64,000 nt of DNA, taken from positions 930,001 through 994,000 of the forward strand of contig CANNDZ010000001.1 in NCBI GenBank assembly GCA_947503575.1, written 5' to 3'. Numbering within the stretch: position 1 is the stretch's first letter; every line of letters begins with the position of its first letter. This stretch comes from an uncultured Kordiimonas sp. GTDB taxonomy: Bacteria > Pseudomonadota > Alphaproteobacteria > Sphingomonadales > Kordiimonadaceae. A model generated the notes under the pieces. The model was not told the DNA's origin and did not search any database. It saw nothing but the letters and a program-made list of their open reading frames with translations. Of this stretch, positions 33,560-39,133 are shown in pieces. A program made the translations under genes and the position numbers.

Positions 33560-34534
33560 TTAGCCCCATAGGGCCGGTGTCGGCGGCGCAATGGTGCCCT
33601 TTTCGATGACCAGCCCATTGTCCCGGTCTGAGGCAAGCAACAAAGGCCCATCCAGGTCTACAAACCGGCACCGGGGCGCGATTACCATGGCCGGGGCCAT
33701 CGCGAGCGACGTGCCCAGCATACAGCCAACCATCAGGCCAAGGCCTGCCGCTTCGGCTTTTTCGACCAGTTCAATTGCGGCTGTCAGGCCGCCGCATTTA
33801 TCCAGCTTGATATTGACCACGTCATACAGTGCAGCCAGCCGAGGTACATCAGCGGCTGTCATGCAGCTTTCATCAGCGCACACGGGGACCGGGCTTTTGA
33901 ACCCTGCCAGCACATCGTCCTGGCCGCGAGGCAAGGGTTGCTCAATCAGGTGAACATTGAGTGCTGCAAGTCTGAGGGCGAGCTCTTGCAACTGGTCAAA
34001 TGTCAGCGCTTCGTTGGCATCAACGATAATTTTAGCGTCGCGCCGCGCCTGATGAACCGCCGCCACGCACGCCAAAGGGTTGTCGCCGGCAAGTTTTAAC
34101 TTCAGCAATCGGGAGGTGGCATTCTCCGCGGCCAAGGCCATCGCAGCGGGGGTGTCGAGGCTTAACGTAAAGGCCGTTTCAACAGGCGCAGGGGTAAAAC
34201 CGGCCAGGTCAAAAATACTTTGGCCGGTTTGTTTTGTCTCCAGGTCCCACAATGCACAATCAAGCGCATTGCGCGCCCCACCCGCTGGCATCTCTTGTGC
34301 TATCAGGTCCCGGGTAAGCGGTCCCTGGTGGGCGGCAAAAAAAGCTTCCAGTTCTGCCCGCATTGTGTGCGGGGTTTCGCCTTTGTAATTAACGCCTGCC
34401 GCTTCGCCGCGACCAATCACATCATCCTGACGCAGGGTTAACACAAGCACATCGGTTGTGTCACAGCGTCGCCGCGAAATAACGAAGGGAACCTTTAAGT
34501 CCCATGTTTCGATTTTGATGTCGTGGCTGAACAA
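33560..34534 (-). CDS. Dipeptide (L-Ala-D/L-Glu type) epimerase, enolase superfamily
   Basis: Muconate lactonising / dipeptide epimerase subgroup. In murein recycling such enzymes convert L-Ala-D-Glu to L-Ala-L-Glu; others epimerise different dipeptides. Visible are the VPFVISRR capping segment, the first base in LLKLKLAGDN (KxK), metal ligands in IIVDANEAL, LIEQPLPRG and VCADESC, and the second base in VNIKLDKCGG. The start is uncertain. TTG 34534 lies four bases after the ubiX stop and gives 324 residues that fit the family. An upstream codon at 34597 would overlap ubiX by 59 bases. The gene is probably co-transcribed with ubiX. Confidence 0.85.
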   Translation of the reverse strand: MFSHDIKIETWDLKVPFVISRRRCDTTDVLVLTLRQDDVIGRGEAAGVNYKGETPHTMRAELEAFFAAHQGPLTRDLIAQEMPAGGARNALDCALWDLETKQTGQSIFDLAGFTPAPVETAFTLSLDTPAAMALAAENATSRLLKLKLAGDNPLACVAAVHQARRDAKIIVDANEALTFDQLQELALRLAALNVHLIEQPLPRGQDDVLAGFKSPVPVCADESCMTAADVPRLAALYDVVNIKLDKCGGLTAAIELVEKAEAAGLGLMVGCMLGTSLAMAPAMVIAPRCRFVDLDGPLLLASDRDNGLVIEKGTIAPPTPALWG

Positions 34535-34538
34535 AGGC

Positions 34539-35126
34539 CTATTTGCCGGTTGTGTTCGGACCTTGCCAGCGCTCCACAAGCCCGGTGTCCAGCTCAAACA
34601 AATCCAGCACCCTGCCTACCGTGTGATTGATGATGTCATCAATCGTTTGTGGGTTGGTATACATGGCGGGCATGGGCGGCGCGACAATTGCCCCCAGCTG
34701 GTTAGCTTCCATCATCAGTTTGCAATGCCCCGCATGGATCGGTGTCTCACGCGGCATCAAAACCAAACGCCGTCGTTCCTTCAGCGCCACATCAGCGGCG
34801 CGGGTCAGAAGGTCATCAGCGTGGCTGTGCACTATCGCAGACAGGTTTTTCATGGAACAGGCAGCGACAATCATGCCGTGGGTTTTGAAGGACCCGCTGG
34901 CAATGGATGCCCCCACTTGCGCCACGCTATGCACCGTGTCTGCCAGCGCTTCCACGTCTGAAGCATCAAGATCGGTTTCGATTTTAACATTCATGCGCGC
35001 CGTTTTCGACATGACCAGATGTGTCTCAACATTCCTGGCACTTTTCAGTACCTCAAGCATACGAATGCCATAGATCACGCCACTTGCGCCGCCAATACCA
35101 ATGATCAGCTTTTTTTGCTCGCTCAC
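34539..35126 (-). CDS. ubiX: Flavin prenyltransferase UbiX
   Basis: Makes prenylated FMN, the cofactor of UbiD-type decarboxylases used in ubiquinone synthesis and aromatic acid decarboxylation. From GTG 35126 (AAGGAG seven bases ahead) it has 195 residues. LIIGIGGASGVIYGIRMLEVLK is the flavin-binding N-terminus, and SGSFKTHGMIVAACSMKNLSAI and VLMPRETPIHAGHCKLM are family signatures. No ubiD partner is in the window. Partner in a two-gene unit with the downstream epimerase. Confidence 0.95.
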   Translation of the reverse strand: MSEQKKLIIGIGGASGVIYGIRMLEVLKSARNVETHLVMSKTARMNVKIETDLDASDVEALADTVHSVAQVGASIASGSFKTHGMIVAACSMKNLSAIVHSHADDLLTRAADVALKERRRLVLMPRETPIHAGHCKLMMEANQLGAIVAPPMPAMYTNPQTIDDIINHTVGRVLDLFELDTGLVERWQGPNTTGK

Positions 35127-35237: not shown

Positions 35238-36104
35238 ATGACGCAGCTTCAAAAAAATCGCTTCATCTTAACCATCCGGTGCCCGGATGCCATGGGCATT
35301 GTTGCCGCAGTCTCTGGCTATCTAACCGGCAAGAATTATTTCATTGATGAATCGTCGCATTTTGGTGACCCGATAACGGGCATGTTTTTTATGCGTACCG
35401 TGTTTACGCCGACGGGGATTTCGCCTGCCCGCCAAGACTTTGCTGATGAGTTTGCCGCCATTGCAGATATGTTTGGTATGGAATGGCGTCTCGCCGATAC
35501 GCACATTAAACACAGGGTTCTGATCATGGTATCGAAGTTTGATCATTGCCTGAATGACCTGTTGTACCGGCACAGCACGGGCGCGCTCAACATGGAAGTG
35601 CCCGCAATCGTATCGAACCATATGGACTTGTCGGGTCTTGCGGACCGGCACGGCATTCCGTTTTTTCATATTCCGGTCAGTAAGGATACAAAACCGGAGG
35701 CTGAACAAAAGCTGCTGGACGTGATTGAGGAAACGCAGGCCGGCACCATTGTGCTCGCCAGGTATATGCAGGTTTTGTCTGATGCCATTTGCCGGAAACT
35801 GCAGGGCAGGGTGATCAATATTCACCATTCATTTTTACCAAGCTTCAAAGGGGCAAAACCTTATCATCAGGCACACGAGCGCGGTGTAAAACTGATTGGC
35901 GCAACCGCTCATTATGTTACGCCTGACCTGGATGAAGGGCCGATCATTGAGCAGATTGTTGAGCGAGTTGATCATACAAAAACGCCAGACCAACTGGTGG
36001 CCATGGGCCGGGACGCAGAAGCCATCGCCTTATCGCGGGCGCTGTCGTATCATCTTGATGACAGGGTGTTCCTGAATGGCAGTAAAACAGTGGTGTTCAA
36101 ATAG
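35238..36104 (+). CDS. purU: Formyltetrahydrofolate deformylase PurU
   Basis: Hydrolyses 10-formyl-THF to THF and formate, balancing one-carbon pools. It has 288 residues from ATG 35238. The N-terminal ACT domain (about 1-85) begins RFILTIRCPDAMGIVAAVSG. The C-terminal formyl-transferase-like domain has the catalytic Asn-His-Asp set: the VSNHMDL region, NIHHSFLPSFKGAKPYHQA, and GATAHYVTPDLDEGPIIEQ. The ribosome-binding site is weak. It is divergent from ubiX, and its stop lies four bases before the end of the convergent dehalogenase gene. Confidence 0.95.
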   Translation: MTQLQKNRFILTIRCPDAMGIVAAVSGYLTGKNYFIDESSHFGDPITGMFFMRTVFTPTGISPARQDFADEFAAIADMFGMEWRLADTHIKHRVLIMVSKFDHCLNDLLYRHSTGALNMEVPAIVSNHMDLSGLADRHGIPFFHIPVSKDTKPEAEQKLLDVIEETQAGTIVLARYMQVLSDAICRKLQGRVINIHHSFLPSFKGAKPYHQAHERGVKLIGATAHYVTPDLDEGPIIEQIVERVDHTKTPDQLVAMGRDAEAIALSRALSYHLDDRVFLNGSKTVVFK

Positions 36105-36108
36105 TCCG

Positions 36109-36792
36109 TTAGCTGGCCCAGCCCCCGCTAAATGGAATAGCCTGACCGACAAAAAAATCGCTTTCGCTTGAGGCCAGAAATACCGCAAGCGCGGTGTCTT
36201 CCTCAGGTTTTGCCAGTCGCCCCAGCGGGACTTCACGTGCAAGATTGGCTTGAAATTTTGGGTTTTCCTGCATTTCCTGTGGGTAATATGCCGGGTTTTC
36301 AACCCAGTTCTGGGCGATCAGATTGCACTGAATATTATCGCGCGCCAGCTCCACACCGACGGATTTGACGTAAGAAATTTGCGCGCCCCGCGCCGCAGAA
36401 TAGGCGGCCAAACGCCCCATCGGGCGCAAGGGCACAGCGCTGCCAAATACGACGATTTTACCGGACTTCCGCGCTTTCATCTGCGGAGCGACTGCCCGCA
36501 CCAAGCGGTGCAGCGGGTAGACCATAACCTCGAAAGCTGTTTGAAAGTCAGTGTCTTCAAGGGTTTCGACGGCTTTGCCATATAGATTTTCTGACGCCAG
36601 ATTTGCGACAAGGATGTCAATGTCACCGGCAGCATCAACTACTGCCTTGGCTTTTTCAGGCGCGGTTAAAATGGCATTATCGGCAATGACGGTCGCGCCT
36701 TCGCGTTTGAAATGCTCAACCGTCGCCGGCCCCATAAAATCTGCAGCCTGTGTAATTAGGGCTTTTTTTCCGTTAAGCCTGCCATTGCCCAT
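36109..36792 (-). CDS. Halohydrin dehalogenase-type protein (SDR fold, Ser-Tyr-Arg triad)
   Basis: Short-chain dehydrogenase-fold protein of 227 residues that lacks the SDR cofactor motifs and carries both halohydrin dehalogenase signatures. At the N-terminus the glycine-rich NAD motif is replaced by T-x4-F-x-G (Thr14, Phe19, Gly21; TQAADFMG), where the halide site forms in HheA/B/C. The catalytic triad reads S-x12-Y-x3-R (Ser118, Tyr131, Arg135) instead of the SDR Tyr-x3-Lys. NWVENPAYYP and AVFLASSESDFFVGQAI match the halide-pocket loop and C-terminal region of these enzymes. Such enzymes turn vicinal haloalcohols into epoxides and open epoxides with cyanide, azide or nitrite. The gene follows the RTX protease gene by 49 bases. 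The family call is strong; substrate is unknown. Confidence 0.85.
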   Translation of the reverse strand: MGNGRLNGKKALITQAADFMGPATVEHFKREGATVIADNAILTAPEKAKAVVDAAGDIDILVANLASENLYGKAVETLEDTDFQTAFEVMVYPLHRLVRAVAPQMKARKSGKIVVFGSAVPLRPMGRLAAYSAARGAQISYVKSVGVELARDNIQCNLIAQNWVENPAYYPQEMQENPKFQANLAREVPLGRLAKPEEDTALAVFLASSESDFFVGQAIPFSGGWAS

Positions 36793-36841: not shown

Positions 36842-39133
36842 TTATAAAAATACAAGCGACAGCGATGTGATGTCGTCTTCGTCCAATCCACTAAGAAAAA
36901 TCGAGCTGGTATCCCCGGTATCGACCAGTAAGCCCGAAACGCCGCCAAGGGTTGTCTGGCTTATTGCCGCCTGGATGCTCGCTTCATCAAAAAAGCCCGG
37001 AATATTTTCAAAGGCCAAACTGTCGGAAGTCACGCTGAAGTCCACAATGATGTCGTTGCCGTGGTTTGAAGTGAAAGCGAAGATATCATTGCCGTTACCG
37101 CCGGTAATTGTGTCATCGCCCGGCCCGCCCCATATCACGTCAGAACCGCTGCCAGCGTTGATCTCGTCATCCGCGGTGCCACCAAAGATGGTATCGTTTC
37201 CGGTGCCGCCGGTAATGATATCTTCATCAGAGCCCGCGAAAATAATATCAGCACCGGATCCGCCGTCTATTGTGTCTTCGTTGTTGGTTGCAGAGCCAAC
37301 GCCGCCGTATATCGTATCGTTGCCGCCGTTACCATTTATGGCGTCGTCGCCTTCCCCACCACCCAGGATGTCTGCACCATCGTCGCCAAAAATTGTATCT
37401 CTGCCGGTTCCCGCCCATAAAACATTTTGGCCGCCACCCGTTGTTACAACCGTTTCACCTTGAGTGTTATAGGATGCGCCGACCAGCAGATCATTACCAT
37501 CACCGCCAAAGAGGGTATCATTGCCTGCTGCGCTGGCACTTTCACTCGTGATATCGGCGTTTGCGTGCCCCCCCACGATGACGTCGTTGCCTGCTCCGGC
37601 ACCAAGGACATCATTACCTGCATTGCCCTCAACGGTATCATTACCTTGGTCATCTGGCCCCGCAAAGGCCTGGTCGTTCCCCGCACCGCCAGACACTTTA
37701 TCATTGCCTGCATTGCCCAGAAGAAAGTCCGCGCCATCTGCGCCCGATATAACATCATTACCGGCCCCGCCTTCGATGCGGTTGGCGGCAGCATTGCCAA
37801 CCACAGTATCGTTTCCGCCTGCTGCCAGGATGGTTTCGATCACTGTTTCCGGGCTTATAAATACAGTTTCGTCCCGCGATCCAACAACCGTGCTAAAGCG
37901 GCTGAAATATGTAACCGTTGTGCCCACGTCGATAAAAGACCCACCAAAGGCGCTTGCATCCGGTGACAGGTCAATTTTGACGTTTTCGTTGCCGCCAACA
38001 ATCTCGATCGTATCATTGCCGCCCGTGTCGAGGATCGTTTCAAAATACTCGTCATTAACATTGAACGTGTACACGTCGTCGCTGTCAGCGTCTTCTGACG
38101 GGCCATATATTTGCCGCAGTGCCAGCAAGTCCAGATATCCGAATGTGGTTGGGTAAAAACTGACACGCACGGCATCCGGAAAAAATGCTGACGTGAAACT
38201 CGTCGTCAGCAGGGTAAATTCTGCACCTGTAAATTCTTCGGGGAAGCTAGAGTCGTCCTCTTCGTTCACATGCTCAAGTCCGAGCGCGTGCCCCAGCTCA
38301 TGCAAAACGACAAATCGCAGCAGCCCTTCGCTTCGGATCTCGCTTTCAAAAATGGCGACATCGCCAGCCGAGGAAGACTCGCCCGGTAGCCCAGCAAGAC
38401 CAATGGTATTGCCGGAGTCAAAGGCGCTGTCGACGCCGTAAAGCCGCAGCGTGCCGAATGTTTCTTCTGTGTCCTCAACCTCAAGGAAGCGTATGTTGGC
38501 GTCTTCCGCAACTTGAGCTAGCCCATCTCTATAAAAGGCTTCTGCAGACGCCCCGATAGGGATGGCAAATTCTGTGATATCCACGTCGTCTAAGTTGAAA
38601 GACGAGAAGAACGTAGGGTTATCGCCCGGAATACTGAATGTGACCGTCGGTGTGTCGACACCGTTTCCGTACCCTCGTCCAAAAACCAATGTGTCGATGA
38701 TAATGTCACCGGTGTCAGCCACCGACCGCAGAACAAGTGGGTCAGGCCTGTCACTCAGGGCTTCTTCTTCCACGTATAGCGTGTAGCTGCCAATGTCGGT
38801 CAGGCTCACATTATTGAACGACGATGCGCCAATAAAATAGGTGCCGGACGTGCTGGGTGTAAACAGAATACGACTGTTGGTGGAGACACCGTCGTCATCA
38901 TCCTGTGTCGCAACTTGAAAGCCGCGATCATTAAAGACCCCGGTTAGGAATGGGTCCAGCAGCGTGCCGGATGCAGTTCTGCTGCCTTCAAGGTCGATCT
39001 GGTATGTAACGCCGCCAACCAAGTCTACAGCAAAAAAGTCGGTATCCCCTTCTACTTCAATGACGCCAGTGGCACTGCTGCCAACAGTCACTGAAAAGTT
39101 GGTGGCAATACTGCCGGTTGGTTCGTCGTCCAT
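36842..39133 (-). CDS. RTX serralysin-like metalloprotease (M10) with PPC domain
   Basis: A 763-residue secreted protein without a Sec signal. Domains in order: a bacterial pre-peptidase C-terminal-like (PPC) beta domain (about 12-120), a metzincin protease domain (about 125-360), and a long RTX region (about 420-700). The protease domain holds HELGHALGLEH (His278, Glu279, His282, His288). The RTX region has about a dozen GGxGNDxIxG-type calcium-binding nonapeptides. A C-terminal tail of about 60 residues ends SLSLVFL, hydrophobic as in type I secretion signals. PPC at the N-terminus is unusual for serralysins. AGGAG precedes the ATG. No type I secretion genes are in the window. Confidence 0.9.
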   Translation of the reverse strand: MDDEPTGSIATNFSVTVGSSATGVIEVEGDTDFFAVDLVGGVTYQIDLEGSRTASGTLLDPFLTGVFNDRGFQVATQDDDDGVSTNSRILFTPSTSGTYFIGASSFNNVSLTDIGSYTLYVEEEALSDRPDPLVLRSVADTGDIIIDTLVFGRGYGNGVDTPTVTFSIPGDNPTFFSSFNLDDVDITEFAIPIGASAEAFYRDGLAQVAEDANIRFLEVEDTEETFGTLRLYGVDSAFDSGNTIGLAGLPGESSSAGDVAIFESEIRSEGLLRFVVLHELGHALGLEHVNEEDDSSFPEEFTGAEFTLLTTSFTSAFFPDAVRVSFYPTTFGYLDLLALRQIYGPSEDADSDDVYTFNVNDEYFETILDTGGNDTIEIVGGNENVKIDLSPDASAFGGSFIDVGTTVTYFSRFSTVVGSRDETVFISPETVIETILAAGGNDTVVGNAAANRIEGGAGNDVISGADGADFLLGNAGNDKVSGGAGNDQAFAGPDDQGNDTVEGNAGNDVLGAGAGNDVIVGGHANADITSESASAAGNDTLFGGDGNDLLVGASYNTQGETVVTTGGGQNVLWAGTGRDTIFGDDGADILGGGEGDDAINGNGGNDTIYGGVGSATNNEDTIDGGSGADIIFAGSDEDIITGGTGNDTIFGGTADDEINAGSGSDVIWGGPGDDTITGGNGNDIFAFTSNHGNDIIVDFSVTSDSLAFENIPGFFDEASIQAAISQTTLGGVSGLLVDTGDTSSIFLSGLDEDDITSLSLVFL

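Follow-up and report, generated by a model that had tools for sequence, protein, structure and literature searches.

The 64,000-nucleotide stretch of DNA from an uncultured Kordiimonas sp. analysed here, referred to as the window, harbors on its minus strand an open reading frame of 227 amino acids that very probably encodes a cofactor-independent halohydrin dehalogenase (HHDH) of the superclade comprising the B- and D-type enzymes. HHDHs, which make and open epoxides without NAD(P), are a known and industrially useful kind of enzyme serving the production of chiral alcohols and epoxides, and to our knowledge few of their branches have been sampled so far. The present identification is a sound one within this known family and does not introduce a new kind of enzyme. 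Membership in the family, as proposed in the sequence-only reading, is well supported by the sequence, the phylogeny, the model structure and the conservation of the motifs, and from the analogy with known enzymes we infer the activity, the substrate range and a role in the handling of halohydrins or epoxides in this marine alphaproteobacterium. No prior link between Kordiimonas and HHDHs was found in a search of open-licence papers. The Kordiimonas copy, together with the separate alphaproteobacterial clade to which it belongs, provides new candidates for enzyme screening; the biological interest is moderate to low, and the interest for screening is somewhat higher.

The encoded protein carries both HHDH motifs

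The open reading frame starts with an ATG codon. The following features were assigned, with residues numbered according to the query protein.

36109..36792, minus strand: very probable HHDH gene, 227 amino acids, B/D superclade; from sequence, trees and model
36730..36753, minus strand: motif 1, T14-x4-F19-x-G21, which by analogy would form the nucleophile pocket; aligned with T7, F12 and G14 of HheC
36388..36441, minus strand: motif 2, S118-x12-Y131-x3-R135, putatively catalytic; aligned with S132, Y145 and R149 of HheC
36280..36312, minus strand: loop Q161-N-W-V-E-N-P-A-Y-Y-P171, in which W163 and Y170 mark the clade of the query; from the alignment

The motifs T-x4-F-x-G and S-x12-Y-x3-R as well as the NPAYYP loop (N166-P-A-Y-Y-P171) are all located at the residues where they had been claimed. 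In the excerpt of PMC11976700, HHDHs are defined by T-x4-F/Y-x-G in combination with S-x12-Y-x3-R, and SDRs by T-G/A-x3-G/A-x-G in combination with S-x10-14-Y-x3-K. The query displays both HHDH motifs, with T14-Q-A-A-D-F19-M-G21 as motif 1 and Y131-SAA-R135 as the C-terminal part of motif 2, and departs from both classical SDR motifs, as TQAADFMG stands in place of the glycine-rich motif and Arg135 occupies the position of the lysine in Y-x3-K. A six-frame scan of the window revealed a single occurrence of the motif pair at suitable spacing. Shuffling the residues of 129 open segments of the window 100 times yielded a mean of 0.0 motif pairs, and the pair emerged in one of 20,000 shuffles of the query protein itself. 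These controls, together with the conservation among relatives described below, rule out a chance match.

Relatives were collected by an alignment-based scan of public genome contigs, for which the scan alignment contained the query twice; at least 506 were found and the best 80 were kept. The motif pair is carried by all 80; in L054, a residue outside the motifs is unresolved. The class and phylum samples contributed 14 additional loci, all 14 of which have the pair as well, and a fragment, L019, in which motif 2 alone is visible. T14, G21, S118, Y131 and R135 are invariant in the alignment of the query with 56 of the 80 kept relatives and also in 84 of 84 rows of the B/D superclade. According to the excerpt of PMC4989007, the motif pair led to the detection of 37 new HHDH genes, and 19 selected enzymes were confirmed to be active.

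In the alignment, residues of the query coincide with those of the halide pocket of HheC: Q161-N162-W163-V164 corresponds to P175 to L178 and Y169-Y170 to F186-Y187 of HheC. The alignment likewise indicates that the SDR segment following strand 2 is missing from the query, as it is from HheB and HheD2. This stretch is present in seven ordinary SDRs of the host genome, which are 22-29% identical to the query and have kept Y-x3-K in all seven cases.

Sequence searches place the protein next to HheB and HheD enzymes

The best matches in a sequence search of the PDB were HheD2 (7b73) with 228.6 bits, HheB (4zd6) with 221.6 bits, a HheB mutant (5b12) with 217.5 bits and a chloride-containing HheD8 triple mutant (8xxb) with 199.3 bits. 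Lower scores were obtained for 6a41, named 'dehalogenase' (123 bits), for HheA chains with 96-104 bits and, with 99.1 bits, for 8y11, the first NAD-bound SDR in the search; a chain named AbHheG_m scored 80.8 bits and the HheC chains 73-78 bits. Thus, every SDR listed is much more distant from the query than the B and D enzymes are, yet the query is no nearer to HheA and HheC (about 73-104 bits) than to some NAD-dependent SDRs such as 8y11.

HheD2 from a gammaproteobacterium is 51.6% identical to the query, equal to it in length and carries the motif pair, but belongs to a separate D clade and has F163 and F170 where the query has W163 and Y170. HheB of Corynebacterium sp. N-1074, 50.9% identical and aligned without gaps over 226 residues, shares W163 and D199 with the query. 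Nevertheless, it falls into a separate B clade and differs at Y19, F71, Q125, H162 and F170, where the query has F19, Y71, M125, N162 and Y170. Identity to HheD8, a D-clade enzyme represented in 8xxb by a chloride-bound form with three engineered changes, amounts to 45.5%. The motif pair and the triad are also found in HheC (1pwx) and HheA2 (1zmo), but the A/C group, including 6a41, forms a separate clade of 30-38% identity, and HheC possesses a C-terminal extension that the query lacks. The SDR 8y11, an L-2-keto-3-deoxyfuconate 4-dehydrogenase, shares the SDR fold and about 31-36% identity with the query, but binds NAD(H). The mean identity of the query amounts to 63% for both the Rhizobiaceae-type and the Rhodospirillaceae-type rows, 59% for the gammaproteobacterial clade, 55% for B, 53% for D, 33% for the A/C group and 26% for SDRs.

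Trees and a model structure group the protein with HHDHs

A tree of 95 rows, including a misframed SDR row (L010), recovered the B/D superclade with support of 100/98 and the query clade, comprising 17 rows, with 99/98. L010 was dropped from the cleaned trees and from the identity table. The cleaned tree was built with 59 of the 94 rows (gammaproteobacterial clade 22 of 49, B 10 of 13, D 5 of 5, query clade 15 of 17, A/C 3 of 3, SDR 4 of 7). With the bootstrap incompletely settled, support in this tree was 96/99 for the query clade (15 rows: seven Kordiimonas-type, five Rhizobiaceae-type and three Rhodospirillaceae-type), 98/94 for B, 93/95 for D and 94/94 for the gammaproteobacterial clade. 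In a second cleaned analysis, the superclade including HheB, HheD2 and HheD8 stood apart from the SDRs with 98/98. A phylogeny with HheA to HheG and ordinary SDRs had been proposed as a check. The trees cover the query clade, the gammaproteobacterial clade, B, D, A/C and, as the only outgroup, SDRs of the host genome, and within this set the query groups with the HHDHs. Placement among NAD(P)-dependent SDRs, the outcome that would speak against an HHDH, was looked for in the trees and was not found.

The fold of a model structure points in the same direction. An AlphaFold2 model built from 57 sequences and without ligand (pLDDT 89.9, pTM 0.89) has a predicted fold nearest to the solved HHDHs HheD2, HheB and HheD8, whose chains take ranks 1 to 9 in a Foldseek search. 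VIA-align yielded Z scores of 33.6 for HheD2, the best match of the model with an rmsd of 1.5 Å over 221 residues, 33.5 for HheB and its mutant, and 32.5 for HheD8 (1.4-1.6 Å), and listed the other 46 of 50 entries at Z of at most 28.5.

Proposed mechanism

The roles of the residues were taken from what is known of HheC and from the excerpts of PMC4989007 and PMC11976700. By analogy with HheC, HheB and HheD, Tyr131, its pKa lowered by Arg135, would take the proton of a vicinal halohydrin, while Ser118 would hold the substrate oxygen. The halide would then exit into a pocket formed by Thr14, Phe19 and Gly21 and the loop of Gln161-Val164 and Tyr169, which would replace the nucleotide site, and an epoxide would be released as the product. 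In the reverse direction, epoxides might be opened by halide or other small anions, for which the sequence-only reading had named cyanide and nitrite.

The gene occupies one conserved chromosomal locus in eight Kordiimonas genomes

The host groups with Kordiimonas: Kordiimonas and Kordiimonadaceae genomes are its closest named relatives, next to some MAGs that carry broader or other names. The HHDH gene was detected in 8 of 19 Kordiimonas genomes. It was present in 9 of 296 genomes of the order sample (E 1e-30), and in 12 of 385 and 4 of 398 genomes of the class and phylum samples, respectively (E 1e-40), the host being included in each. The family had been called rare, which agrees with these roughly 1-3% of sampled genomes, yet less so with the at least 506 relatives encountered in public genomes.

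The gene is chromosomal and resides at one conserved locus in the eight Kordiimonas genomes, where it is surrounded by the following genes of the window.

36842..39133, minus strand: RTX-repeat protein with a zinc-protease-like motif, HELGHALGLEH (by eye), 49 bases upstream of the HHDH gene
35238..36104, plus strand: formyl transferase (PurU-like), convergent neighbor, in 5 of 8 Kordiimonas loci
34542..35123, minus strand: flavoprotein (UbiX-like), in 7 of 8 Kordiimonas loci
33563..34534, minus strand: enolase-superfamily enzyme (epimerase-like), in 8 of 8 Kordiimonas loci

The RTX protein gene adjoins the HHDH gene upstream on the same strand in all eight loci. Its orthologs, at an identity of at least 63%, are present in all eight HHDH carriers and in none of the 11 other genomes, where the best match reaches at most 53%. 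Similarly, UbiX is 70-100% identical to that of the window in the eight carriers and 48-53% identical in 10 of the 11 other genomes, the remaining one having no match. These identities, used here in place of a species tree, suggest that the eight carriers constitute one lineage. A patchy gain or loss within Kordiimonas is unsupported, as the carriers match the eight genomes defined by these UbiX and protease identities.

Between the query and its seven Kordiimonas orthologs, codon position 3 differs at 52-66% of the sites and positions 1 and 2 at 10-17%, a contrast indicating that purifying selection keeps the gene. dS is near or past saturation in these comparisons and was not computable for three of the seven pairs. 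In the best 25 of 567 plasmid records, the closest match, from Novosphingobium resinovorum, was 49% identical, and the runner-up about 35%. IMG/VR contained one relative, a partial gene at a contig end with 60% identity. Given the low identity to the plasmid genes listed, the single IMG/VR fragment and the single conserved Kordiimonas locus, recent plasmid or phage cargo is likewise unsupported.

Alternative readings of the gene

An ordinary NAD(P)-dependent SDR that had lost its glycine motif and catalytic lysine through chance substitutions would have the same overall fold. Moreover, the gene resembles such an enzyme in profile searches: among the matches listed, Pfam returned general SDR models only (adh_short_C2, 112 bits), and in NCBIfam none of the best 25 of 190 matches, again general SDR models, reached its cut-off. 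These general models would account for an annotation as SDR. However, both the glycine-rich motif and the lysine are replaced not only in the query but in every one of the 80 kept relatives, the segment after strand 2 is gone as in HheB and HheD, and the bit scores, the tree and the Z scores all place the query with these two enzymes. We therefore consider this explanation highly improbable; the tree, the scores and the model speak for its rejection.

The second alternative overlaps with the assignment as an HHDH and refines it: the fold and the triad would be those of an HHDH, but the physiological reaction would involve natural epoxides, or else a different nucleophile or substrate, with dehalogenation as a side activity. 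No halogen-related gene was recognised beside the Kordiimonas HHDH gene, and its RTX, PurU-like, UbiX-like and epimerase-like neighbors comprise nothing that points to halohydrins or epoxides. In addition, the excerpt of PMC4989007 considers other physiological functions possible, because only two of the HHDH genes then known were located in an epoxide hydrolase operon. In other branches, a GST gene lies within 400 bp in 12 of the 80 loci, a count that includes the weak match of L076 lacking a Pfam match at 1e-5, and a glyoxalase gene lies within the same distance in 15 of the 80. Both kinds of genes were Pfam-checked on representatives. The profiles employed derive from genes of the very loci searched, so such genes are the ones found best, and many of the loci are close kin with common synteny. 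On the other hand, the query clade itself gave neither GST nor glyoxalase matches in its 16 other loci, some of which have short flanks. Furthermore, an ordinary SDR of the host is also situated 71 bp from a GST gene, so that this adjacency may not be special. No enrichment of GST, glyoxalase or epoxide hydrolase neighbors was demonstrated against the SDRs of the host genome, which make a poor control. Considering both sides, we regard a physiological reaction other than dehalogenation as possible, if somewhat unlikely.

A candidate subtype within the B/D superclade

Returning to the assignment as an HHDH of the B/D superclade, the query falls outside both the B clade (98/94) and the D clade (93/95). 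Moreover, its identity to the two verified HheD sequences compared, HheD2 and the HheD8 mutant, remains below 57%, the lower end of the 57-95% identity to verified HheD enzymes that the excerpt of PMC4989007 gives for HheD19 to HheD38. The same excerpt states that HHDH subtypes share less than 30% identity, which is at odds with the 47% computed here between HheB and HheD2. The position of the query clade within the superclade is loosely determined. Its pairing with the gammaproteobacterial clade as sisters obtained support of only 34/36, and neither a sister relationship with B (p-AU 0.265) nor one with D (p-AU 0.299) was rejected.

All 17 rows of the query clade combine W163 with Y170, which none of the 67 other superclade rows does; among the latter, HheB alone has W163. 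In the gammaproteobacterial clade, Y170 occurs in 47 of 49 rows and Y163 in all 49. N69 is present in all 17 query-clade rows and in 40 of the 49 gammaproteobacterial ones, but in no B or D row; this distribution indicates a partial link between the two clades. Among the sequences compared, no characterised member of the query's branch was found. Name searches yielded no HheE or HheF sequence. In a comparison that covered A/C, B, D and gammaproteobacterial sequences, the query belongs to neither the B nor the D clade as sampled, and the earlier suggestion of a new subtype is a possibility rather than a demonstrated result. That the Kordiimonas-Rhizobiaceae-Rhodospirillaceae clade marked by W163 and Y170 represents an undescribed HHDH subtype, and that the wider superclade may provide the epoxide/halohydrin step of a glutathione- or epoxide hydrolase-coupled detoxification, is a tentative and rather unlikely proposal. 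The glutathione- and epoxide hydrolase-related neighbors in some other branches bear on the wider question of the natural function of HHDHs, and this connection is testable.

Gene neighborhoods in other branches

An epoxide hydrolase gene identified by Pfam as EHN (L081:6810-7943) is located downstream of an HHDH-type gene, and L084 contains a homologue, assigned by cluster only. In the host genome, the epoxide hydrolase N-terminal family PF06441 (EHN) had no match, and 17 matches to GST_N_3 were obtained. The GST-adjacent SDR of the host (G000:C1:70496-71324, 71 bp) was one of 19 other SDR matches in this genome.

Around the B-clade genes, a conserved alphaproteobacterial block was observed in six loci (L073, L077, L085, L092, L093 and L098), comprising genes for an acyl-CoA dehydrogenase, a ferredoxin-reductase-like protein, a TauD-like dioxygenase, a GST, the HHDH and an O6-alkylguanine-DNA methyltransferase. 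The GST, the acyl-CoA dehydrogenase and the methyltransferase were Pfam-checked in one locus each, and the remaining members were assigned by eye. The methyltransferase gene lies 3′ of the HHDH gene in six alphaproteobacterial B-clade loci. The GST, glyoxalase, epoxide hydrolase and methyltransferase neighbors are compatible with the handling of reactive epoxides.

In six Rhizobiaceae-type loci of the query clade (L027-L033 without L030), a gene for a TetR-family regulator is located upstream on the opposite strand in five (Pfam-checked in one). By eye, acyl-CoA dehydrogenase-like genes were recognised in four and quinone-reductase-like genes in five of these six loci. This neighborhood may constitute an inducible catabolic cluster.

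Upstream of D-type genes, a glyoxalase gene was found at a distance of 9 bp in L096 and 42 bp in L097. The latter contig is titled Akkermansia muciniphila, and its gene nests with one from Comamonadaceae, indicating that the bin or the label may be wrong.
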